Shown: positions 24,341-34,369 of the stretch, one piece after another
Position numbering within the stretch: the first letter of the stretch is position 1
Layout of the letters: every line of letters starts with the position of its first letter
Assembly (NCBI GenBank): GCA_020050835.1
Contig: JAGVKB010000137.1
Location: forward strand, 1 to 64,000
Direction of reading: 5' to 3'
Origin: Candidatus Obscuribacterales bacterium
Lineage (GTDB): Bacteria > Cyanobacteriota > Vampirovibrionia > Obscuribacterales > Obscuribacteraceae
Length of the DNA: 64,000 nt
Made by a program: the position numbers and the translations under genes
The notes under the pieces: model-generated
What the model saw: the letters and a program-made list of their open reading frames with translations, nothing else
Databases searched by the model: none
What the model was told of the DNA's origin: nothing

Positions 24341-25231
24341 TTATGGGATTAAGTCCGGTGGCGAGTGATAAAGATAGCGAATTGTAGAAGCATCGTTGGC
24401 CGAGATAGTACCGTTGCCATAATACAAACTCATCAAATCAATTGGGTTTCGACTGTGCCCATCGATCCCGAGCGCATGACCGAACTCGTGAGCTGCTGCC
24501 GCTCGCATCTTCTGAAACGGCATGGCAACGCCGTTTGTATCCGTGGTGCGCAGCATGATTACGACCGGTTTGAAATCCGCCTTGCCGCCAGCCAGGATTG
24601 CTCGGTAGGGAAATATATCTTTGGAAGTGTAACCTCTGATATCGCCGGCAAACAATGCCATGCCGGTTTTGTCGACGAAATGGTTGACCCAGAATACAAA
24701 GATGTCCGCATCCGGCTCAGTGGTCAGCTGGAAGGTGAACAATCCTTCCTTCTCGAATTGTTTCCACATGCCGATTCCTTGTAAGGCGGCATTATAGTGC
24801 TGTTCGTCAAAACCTTGGGCGATTGGCAGCGCTTCAAATTGCCCGGGAGTGCTCAAGATACTGGCGACCAATTTCGGCCAGCCGGCGACATTGCTGGTAT
24901 TAGCGATTGGCGCGCCGACTTCTTCGTCGATGAAGCCGTCGATTGCGGCGCCATGCGAAATATATACCTTGAGCGGCATCTGCTCTTTGATCCAGCGAAC
25001 ATTGCCCATTCTGCTTCGATACTCCGGATAGACTCCGCCGGCAGCAGCAGCTGGTCGCGCTTGCTTGACTGCCAGCTGGCGACCGGACTGGGCGAGACAA
25101 TCAGGCGGCAGAGTCAACGCAACCAGCAAGCAAGCAGCCAGCGAGCGTGAGAGTAGTCCAGGAAATTGACAAATCAGATTGTCACTCAATGTCTTGCCCG
25201 AGCGTGCTTGCCTGATTTTTTCTTTGGACAT
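24341..25231 (-). CDS. secreted matrixin-like zinc metalloprotease
   Basis: Predicted secreted peptidase of the metzincin clan. The zinc site is AAHEFGHALGIDGHS (His248, Glu249, His252, His258) followed by the Met-turn NPIDLMSLYYG with Met at about 267, the M10 matrixin pattern. A hydrophobic signal-like segment occupies residues 28-47 after a basic N-terminus. The 190-residue region between signal and active site resembles an unremarkable peptidase prodomain plus upper lobe (MPLKVYISHG). Physiological substrate unknown. No inhibitor gene seen nearby; the next gene encodes a membrane-bound protein. Confidence 0.85.
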   Translation of the reverse strand: MSKEKIRQARSGKTLSDNLICQFPGLLSRSLAACLLVALTLPPDCLAQSGRQLAVKQARPAAAAGGVYPEYRSRMGNVRWIKEQMPLKVYISHGAAIDGFIDEEVGAPIANTSNVAGWPKLVASILSTPGQFEALPIAQGFDEQHYNAALQGIGMWKQFEKEGLFTFQLTTEPDADIFVFWVNHFVDKTGMALFAGDIRGYTSKDIFPYRAILAGGKADFKPVVIMLRTTDTNGVAMPFQKMRAAAAHEFGHALGIDGHSRNPIDLMSLYYGNGTISANDASTIRYLYHSPPDLIP

Positions 25232-25369
25232 GGGCCCGGAAACCTTTCGTTTAATGCTAATTGGCTATCCCCTTTCTACCACAACCCTAACAGTTGGTAT
25301 CTCAACTGATGAAAAGACGCTGCTGGACTGTGTCTTGACTATGAGTGAGCCTCTTTGAAAATACTCTTA

Positions 25370-25645
25370 AGCTCAAATGGTAAATCTGCTTTAGCTTCCG
25401 GAATTCGAGCGGAGCACAAACAAAATCAAGAGGGCATAAACAGCCGAATTTCGATACATCTTTATAAACGAATGGTTAAAGGTTCGCTGTTGGCTTGAGT
25501 TTCCGGATACAAATATCATACGCCGTTTCGATGGCGCTTCGCAGTATCTCCAGTAGAGGGGCTTGAGGGATCGAGCCCGTTGGGGCAGCACCAACCCTGC
25601 GGTCAATTCGTAAACGCGGCGGGTAGTCCCGCCGTTTTTGTTTTT
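25370..25645 (+). ncRNA. candidate structured RNA upstream of glmU
   Basis: No gene is present between 25232 and 25729. This part folds well on paper: an outer ATAC/GTAT pair around CGCC/GGCG at about 25518-25546, an 8-pair hairpin with a GGGA tetraloop at 25559-25578, then GTTGG/CCAAC (25579-25583 with 25591-25595) whose loop GCAG matches CTGC at 25597-25600, and finally a strong terminator. Possible promoter TTGACT at 25335-25340 and GAAAAT at 25357-25362. The 5-prime end is a guess. It matches no RNA family I can recognise. It could be a trans-acting RNA or an attenuated leader. Confidence 0.4.
25617..25645 (+). terminator. rho-independent terminator ending the RNA-like segment
   Basis: CGGCGGG, loop TAGT, CCCGCCG, then TTTTTGTTTTT. 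Seven perfect pairs and a long T-rich tail on the plus strand, with no upstream protein gene on that strand. Confidence 0.85.
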
Positions 25646-25662
25646 AGGCACAACCGAGCTGA

Positions 25663-25694
25663 TTGGCGGTGGTGCGCGCTTCGCCTTATATAAT
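25663..25694 (+). promoter_or_regulatory. possible glmU promoter
   Basis: A perfect TATAAT at 25689-25694 lies 36 bases before the glmU ATG and after the terminator. The best -35 candidate TTGGCG (25663-25668) is 20 bases away, longer than ideal. Confidence 0.4.
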
Positions 25695-25729
25695 GATCCT
25701 TTTCCAGTGTGGTAACTAGCGGGTGGCAA

Positions 25730-27160
25730 ATGTCAACAGGGGCGAACCGGTCGCTTAGGGCGATACTCCTTGCCGCCGGGCAAGGAAAGAGAATGAAGTC
25801 GTCTCTTCCGAAGGTGCTTCATCAAGTTTTAGGTCGAGCTATCCTTTCTCGCGTTCTCGATGCCTTGGATCGGCTGGGATTGGAGCACGTATATGTCGTC
25901 GTTGGCCATGGAGCAGAAGACGTCCGCCGCTTTCTCGAGAACAATCCACCGGCAACGCCGTGGTCAGCTCATTTGCAAGAACCACAGCTGGGCACTGGCC
26001 ATGCGGTGCAGCAAGTAGCAAATCAGCTGCTGGAATTCGAAGGTACGCTGCTCGTTTCGGTGGCTGATACCCCGCTTTTGACGGCTGAGACGTTAAGCAA
26101 GTTAATCGAAACGCATCAACATGAGTCTGCTGTCGCGACCTTGCTTTCGACGGTCGTTGCTGATGCGAAAAGTTATGGCCGGATAGTGCGAGATAGTCAC
26201 AACAAAGTTGAGAGGATAGTCGAAGACAAGGATGCCACTGCTGCTCAAAAGGCGATTCTAGAGATTAATACGGCGATTTATTGCCTGGAATGGCCGGCTG
26301 TTCAAGAGGGGCTTATGAGCCTGACAAACGACAATGAACAAAAGGAGTATTACCTGACTGATTTGATCGGTTGGGCGACCGGACTCAAGAGAGATGTCTC
26401 GGCGGTAATTGCAGAGGACTGGCGTGAGGTTTCAGGAGTCAATTCCAGGGTGGATTTAGCCGAGGTCAATCGGCTGCTTCGCGAAAGAACAGTCAAGCGG
26501 CTCTTGCTTTCAGACGGTGTAACCGTGCTTGACCCGGACAACACCTGGATTGCACCGGAGGTGTCGATCGGTGCCGACAGTATTGTTTATCCCGGCTGTT
26601 TGCTGACCGGTGATGTCTCGATCGGTGAAGGCTGCACGATCGGACCCCAGACCACCATGTTTGGGCCGGTCAAAGTGGGAGATCATACGACAGTCATGCA
26701 GTCGCTCGTGGTCGACTCGGAGATTGGCTCCCGGTGTCGAGTCGGGCCGTTTGCGCATTTGCGCGAAGGCACTCGACTTTCTGACTCTGTGCGAGTGGGT
26801 AATTTTGTGGAGGTCAAGAAAAGTGAAGTCGGTGCGGAGACCAATGTCTCTCATTTGAGTTACATTGGTGATGCTGAAATTGGCTCCAGGACAAATGTTG
26901 GGGCTGGTACGATCACGGCAAACTATGATCACGTGACGAAATCTAAAGAGAGAACGGTGATCGCTGATGATGTTTCTACCGGCAGCAATTCCGTGCTGGT
27001 GGCACCGGTGACTATCGGTTCAGGCGCGAGCGTAGCGGCCGGTACGGTTGTCACAAAGGATGTGCCGCCCGGGGCGTTAGCTGTGGGACGGGCTCGCCAG
27101 GAGAACAAGACCGGCTGGGCCGACAATAAAAGACAGCGGGTTGAGAAAGCGTTGAAATAA
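25730..27160 (+). CDS. glmU: bifunctional UDP-GlcNAc pyrophosphorylase / GlcN-1-P N-acetyltransferase GlmU
   Basis: Makes UDP-N-acetylglucosamine for peptidoglycan and lipid A in two steps. Seen: N-terminal uridylyltransferase with ILLAAGQGKRMKSSLPKVLH, LGTGHAVQQ, and TAIYCLE; C-terminal left-handed beta-helix with repeated hexapeptides, FAHLREGT, NFVEVKKSEVG, SYIGDAEIG, GAGTITANYDH and GSNSVLVAPV, all GlmU-specific. The ATG at 25730 has GGGTGG five bases upstream; a GTG at 25709 in the same frame lacks a site. Length of 476 residues is slightly above the usual 455. Confidence 0.96.
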   Translation: MSTGANRSLRAILLAAGQGKRMKSSLPKVLHQVLGRAILSRVLDALDRLGLEHVYVVVGHGAEDVRRFLENNPPATPWSAHLQEPQLGTGHAVQQVANQLLEFEGTLLVSVADTPLLTAETLSKLIETHQHESAVATLLSTVVADAKSYGRIVRDSHNKVERIVEDKDATAAQKAILEINTAIYCLEWPAVQEGLMSLTNDNEQKEYYLTDLIGWATGLKRDVSAVIAEDWREVSGVNSRVDLAEVNRLLRERTVKRLLLSDGVTVLDPDNTWIAPEVSIGADSIVYPGCLLTGDVSIGEGCTIGPQTTMFGPVKVGDHTTVMQSLVVDSEIGSRCRVGPFAHLREGTRLSDSVRVGNFVEVKKSEVGAETNVSHLSYIGDAEIGSRTNVGAGTITANYDHVTKSKERTVIADDVSTGSNSVLVAPVTIGSGASVAAGTVVTKDVPPGALAVGRARQENKTGWADNKRQRVEKALK

Positions 27161-34222: not shown

Positions 34223-34259
34223 GCTTCGCTCAAAACCGAAACATGTTAATTTGAAGAAT

Positions 34260-34332
34260 TGGAGCGTACCGGGGTCGAACCGGTGACCTCTTCAATGCCA
34301 TTGAAGCGCGCTACCAACTGCGCTAACGCCCC
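34260..34332 (-). tRNA. tRNA-Ala (anticodon GGC)
   Basis: Minus-strand cloverleaf: acceptor GGGGCGT pairs with ACGCTCC (one G-T), D-arm GCGC..GCGC, anticodon stem CTTCA/TGAAG with loop ATGGCAT giving GGC, and T-arm CCGGTTCGACCCCGG. Discriminator A is at 34260; CCA is not encoded. Decodes GCC and GCT. Confidence 0.95.
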
Positions 34333-34369
34333 ATAATCGTCCTTTTATACCACAATCTGCGTGCTCCGG

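Follow-up and report, generated by a model that had tools for sequence, protein, structure and literature searches.

A cloverleaf RNA in front of glmU: very probably an uncatalogued, mostly free-standing structured RNA family of the Obscuribacterales

What occupies the long gene-free stretch in front of glmU in a Candidatus Obscuribacterales genome, and is it part of the glmU message or an RNA of its own? Obscuribacterales are non-photosynthetic relatives of cyanobacteria. The window analysed here is the whole stretch of 64,000 nucleotides from contig C13 of a 7.0 Mb genome, and the locus is framed by the following features.

24341..25231, minus strand: matrixin-like peptidase gene (cluster c0), divergent and upstream, the usual upstream neighbour of RNA-A; Peptidase_M10 was found on one family member
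25689..25694, plus strand: TATAAT, probable -10 of glmU's own promoter by its sequence; genus g13 and L021 have the same element behind the terminator
25730..27160, plus strand: glmU, identified by NTP_transferase and hexapeptide domains and by tblastn to relatives downstream of the RNA

The glmU start was taken as the ATG at 25730; the listed open frame begins with the GTG at 25709. The non-coding stretch, counted from 25231 to 25709 or 25730, is about 480-500 nt long, and not 280 bases as given in the initial annotation. The rest of that description of the surroundings was accurate. No plus-strand protein gene precedes the segment, and the TATAAT lies between the terminator and glmU.

Folding of positions 25500-25645 gave a structure that beats dinucleotide shuffles (z = -2.76), none of 200 being equally stable. 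It is made up of these elements.

25521..25536, plus strand: 5' hairpin with a UUCG loop (CGCCGU-UUCG-AUGGCG), taken from the segment fold; its sequence is not conserved
25540..25601, plus strand: conserved cloverleaf core (covariance-model match 25537-25607, R2 85.7 bits, E 4.4e-20)
25540..25544, plus strand: 5' strand of P1, CGCAG, pairing with CTGCG at 25597-25601; 100% of cells paired
25548..25558, plus strand: P2 hairpin CTC-CAGTA-GAG, 25548-25550 pairing with 25556-25558
25559..25578, plus strand: P3 hairpin with GNRA loop GGGA and an invariant A-U closing pair, 25559-25566 pairing with 25571-25578
25579..25595, plus strand: P4 hairpin GTTGG/CCAAC with loop GGCAGCA, 25579-25583 pairing with 25591-25595
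25602..25608, plus strand: conserved single-stranded tail after P1, GTCAATT (consensus NNCAATT), with CA in nearly all copies
25616..25645, plus strand: intrinsic terminator GCGGCGGG-TAGT-CCCGCCGT and T-rich tail, hairpin at 25616-25635

The core is a closed four-helix cloverleaf (P1, P2, P3 and P4). The GGGA-capped hairpin, the hairpin that follows it, the single linking base (C25596) and the CTGC at 25597-25600 had all been described correctly, as had the strong terminator that ends the segment. The succession of hairpins thus stands, and what had been overlooked is P1, which uses the same CTGC and closes the three hairpins into one domain. The complementarity between the P4 loop GCAG and CTGC had been read as a pseudoknot or an alternative pairing. 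That pairing does not covary (226 of 500 shuffles do equally well), and it is disrupted in 14 of the 85 distinct copies. CTGC, by contrast, pairs in all 85 with CGCAG, as P1. In types A and B, whose letters hardly vary here, GCAG/CUGC might still form transiently.

Two covariance models were built, R1 from 31 sequences and R2 from 105 matches. In an alignment of 85 distinct copies fitted to the covariance model, 97.6% of the pair cells are paired versus 83.1% in shuffled controls, and compensatory two-sided changes occur in 12 of the 20 pairs. The two-sided cells number 293 versus 88 after shuffling, the covariation score is 0.466 versus 0.175, and the real alignment exceeds every shuffle; the controls in which the structure was slid all collapse to 33-40% paired. 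The same comparison without structural guidance, a MAFFT alignment of 30 distinct sequences, agrees (98.8% paired versus 90.7%, with nine pairs changed on both sides). The helices P2, P3 and P4 covary across many copies. Two-sided changes are found in six of the seven P3 pairs and three of the five P4 pairs, and the middle pair of P2, which can be U-A, C-G or A-U, shows 16 of them. P1 is nearly invariant, its A-U being replaced by G-C in three copies and by G-U in three others. The P3 loop is GGGA except for GTGA in three copies. This comparative support, strong covariation across 20 pairs in 31 and later in 85 distinct sequences, is decisive and confirms the structured RNA; on this point the initial annotation, which had proposed looking for compensatory changes among relatives, is borne out. 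A small protein was considered and rejected, as at best 45 of the 85 copies are open in any single frame.

The covariance model finds the RNA in 51 of 53 Obscuribacterales genomes, with one to six copies in each and usually two or more. Among about 140 other genomes of the class the search found none, and a search of 292 genomes of the phylum gave just three hits beyond the order, all at chance level (E 0.03-0.06). In one of the two negative genomes (G020) the glmU contig stops 29 bp upstream of glmU, and in the assembly of the other (G019) no glmU was found; a gap in the assembly at the glmU locus explains at least one of these negatives. When 84,980 GTDB species were scanned with a pattern, 74 stretches came back. 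As far as they can be placed, all are from the Obscuribacterales group, and their labels are almost always Melainabacteria, Obscuribacterales, Cyanobacteria or simply "bacterium". Three stretches carry the labels Actinobacteria, Chloroflexi and Proteobacteria (L117, CAJCIF010000283.1; L167, SBAT01000051.1; L168, JAJPJO010000352.1), and these records are probably mislabelled and belong to the Obscuribacterales family. A search of 60 relatives at the DNA level gave strong matches to essentially the core alone (about 100-169 of the query), mostly at 80-90% identity. Between species the core has a median identity of 82%, and each flank about 50%.

Rfam 15 was searched with the window and 15 loci representing all subtypes, at gathering and permissive thresholds, and gave no family match over the RNA. 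The weak hits, far under the cut-off, were to STnc310 (on the other strand), Thr_leader and rnk_pseudo. The window's only gathering match is a tRNA-Ala (GGC) at 34259-34333 on the minus strand. The earlier statement that no known family was recognised therefore holds for every member tested, and a literature search found no account of such an RNA. The general kind, a bacterial structured small RNA, is already known; the family itself is new. That it is a real, previously uncatalogued and mostly free-standing structured RNA family is held with high confidence.

Three subtypes can be distinguished. Type A, the type of the window, has the matrixin gene on one side and glmU on the other in most genomes. 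Type B has a P4 of the form ACCG-N-GGGCAGCAC-CGGU and is often flanked by a MerR-family gene and an HD-domain gene. Type C is marked by the P4 loop CGCAACA. The loop letters differ between subtypes with the fold unchanged, and the P3 loop reads ARGGAU in nearly all copies. Two of the loci keep their gene order across genera. The source genome has three clear copies, the window's included; these are the other two and a marginal match.

C79:55202-55272: copy 2, 89 nt before an unknown ORF
C114:41862-41932, minus strand: copy 3, after a MerR-cluster gene, with a terminator
C62:52158-52232: marginal fourth match

Upstream of the hairpins there are two promoter elements.

25465..25480, plus strand: upstream promoter box TAAACGAATGGTTAAA (consensus TRAACGAAANNTTAAA), a putative activator site
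25508..25514, plus strand: -10-like TACAAAT of the RNA, at a conserved position relative to the box

From this layout, transcription of the RNA would start near 25521. Among the 25 RNA-A promoters that score well for both elements jointly, 21 have the box 27 or 28 nt ahead of the -10, those of the sister family included. A joint box/-10 score of at least 17 is reached by 66% of the real upstream regions and by 0.7% of shuffled ones. In five relatives the near-exact box occurs once per genome, at the RNA locus only; the source genome has one extra site with one mismatch (G000:C109:90096-90110, L186). Each genome has about one near-exact match, almost always at this RNA, so the box marks no wide regulon; the idea that it is a Pho box was dropped on the same count. 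In genus g23 (L044, L046, L054, L059, L106 and L151), RNA-A is followed by a convergent OmpR-type response regulator (cluster c6) and then by a larger gene (c8). Since the upstream box resembles a direct repeat, this OmpR-type regulator is a candidate activator.

At the other end, 52 of 84 distinct copies (62%) have a terminator no more than 60 nt from the core by a strict scan, versus 65 of 420 random sites (15%). The strict scan misses about six clear cases, and overall about 70% of the copies carry an intrinsic terminator. As judged from sequence comparison, the family combines a conserved promoter layout, a covarying cloverleaf, a usual terminator, no consistent ORF and independence from glmU in several genomes.

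The segment is most likely a free RNA in the source genome. The initial annotation had favoured a free RNA over a leader, and this agrees with the source genome and most members; it fails for about nine leader-like copies that lie 28-127 nt before a start codon. Because of these, the sister-family copy next to glmU among them, "free RNA" is not valid for every member, and a cis role is possible. The corresponding alternative is a cis-regulatory glmU leader, a riboswitch or attenuator in which the cloverleaf would sense a signal and glmU transcription would be gated by the terminator. It would agree with the presence of glmU downstream of most type A loci, with the sister family, where about 35 nt separate the core from the glmU ATG and hold a U6 run but no terminator hairpin, and with the Usp and other genes that have a copy 31-89 nt upstream of Shine-Dalgarno-ATG. 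However, glmU has its own TATAAT, the paralogues adjoin unrelated genes, and in some genera glmU is not the next gene: genus g23 has the convergent response regulator there, in G022 glmU is 8.6 kb off and in G011 it is divergent. A riboswitch-style antiterminator was rejected, as the core shows no excess pairing with the 5' arm of the terminator (-9.6 kcal/mol, versus -10.8 for the 3' arm with the core and -17.4 for the terminator with itself). A glmU leader is thus improbable. A trans-acting base-pairing sRNA, with the conserved loop GGCAGCA or CUCCAGU as seed for target mRNAs, would also agree with the free-standing, terminated arrangement and its conserved promoter, and with the high conservation of the loops. 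Against it, pairing with the start region of the adjacent glmU is no better than shuffled (mean z +0.5, 23 copies), and between subtypes the loop letters change while the fold persists. Pfam Hfq was detected in six of 53 genomes, three above the cut-off and none of them the source genome, although a divergent Hfq could escape this search. Base pairing as the mode of action appears rather unlikely.

Two further alternatives have very little probability. The ARGGAU loop resembles a CsrA site, and free and leader copies both exist, as they would if the hairpin loop titrated CsrA. But CsrA is absent from 51 of the 53 order genomes in a search with working controls, which practically rules out such a sponge; moreover there is a single site per RNA, and the three GUGA copies retain the GNRA loop and lose GGA. 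The two genomes that encode CsrA (L196 in G002 and L197 in G024) are both from one genus. A mobile or repetitive DNA element (MITE or REP-like) with no functional RNA would account for the multiple copies and for the arrays in G031 and G028. It is contradicted by the long-term gene order at two loci across genera and by the strong covariation, as well as by the strand-specific terminator; viral contigs, plasmids and phages gave no match. This reading is hardly credible.

On balance we lean towards a free sRNA gene family whose folded core binds a shared trans-acting partner. In this account, the sRNA gene, spanning roughly 25521 to 25640 (about 120 nt), would be one of two or more order-wide paralogues, with a promoter that depends on an activator. 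The binding surface would be formed by the folded core and its fixed loops, GGGA, CAGU and GGCAGCA. A common partner is suggested by the sharing of these loops among paralogues at unrelated loci. The partner would most likely be an RNA-binding protein; a dedicated one is favoured, with low confidence, since the glmU pairing is unsupported, CsrA is absent and Pfam Hfq is mostly undetected. Free copies would act on the partner in trans, by titration or guiding, and the partner would have its cis targets in the few leader copies. This part of the account, the partner or its titration, is tentative. A wider reading, and a doubtful one, is a lineage-specific riboregulation in which one cloverleaf module serves both as free RNAs with an activator-type promoter and as mRNA leaders, and is read, with no part for CsrA, by a small ligand or a dedicated RNA-binding protein. 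The leader elements would then include those of the sister-family glmU, the Usp genes and a gene array in G021 and G031.

Several known systems share features with this family. The enterobacterial GlmY and GlmZ (PMC4908143, PMC7073468) are homologous free structured sRNAs that work via the binding protein RapZ and act on glmS. The Obscuribacterales RNA would likewise be a free structured sRNA with a link to the amino-sugar pathway. Unlike GlmY/GlmZ, it has no Rfam match for any member tested, and its tie to glmU is adjacency only. CsrB, CsrC and RsmZ are protein-titrating sRNAs with many sites per RNA. They resemble it in being structured sRNAs with an ARGGAU-like hairpin loop and leader elements that share the motif, and differ in the number of sites, which is one here, and in the CsrA that most of these genomes lack. 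Terminator-controlled riboswitches offer another parallel, a compact junction of several helices with a terminator behind it, close to an amino-sugar gene; here, however, an antiterminator is not seen, often no gene is directly downstream, and the glmU promoter is separate. Orphan structured RNA motifs from comparative genomics (for example PMC2864571) are similarly lineage-restricted, covarying and without an assigned function, but the cloverleaf RNA is not among the Rfam 15 models.

The near-universal presence in the order and the two anciently separate paralogues argue for a core role. The RNA adds a covariation-backed structured family to a group, sister to the photosynthetic cyanobacteria, that has been little studied and is mostly uncultured. 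Its alignment, covariance model and promoter layout open it to direct tests in enrichment cultures or public metatranscriptomes and give a handle for a partner search.

Tandem RNA copies, which speak for free RNAs, occur in G028 and G015, mostly with their own terminators. An array of divergent copies lies among small genes of unknown function in G031:C150 (L190 4126-8298) and G021:C7 (L191 4825-5431). Most copies of the array are shortly upstream of a start codon, and some have altered P4 loops with AGGGAU kept. The array region is possibly a mobile element.
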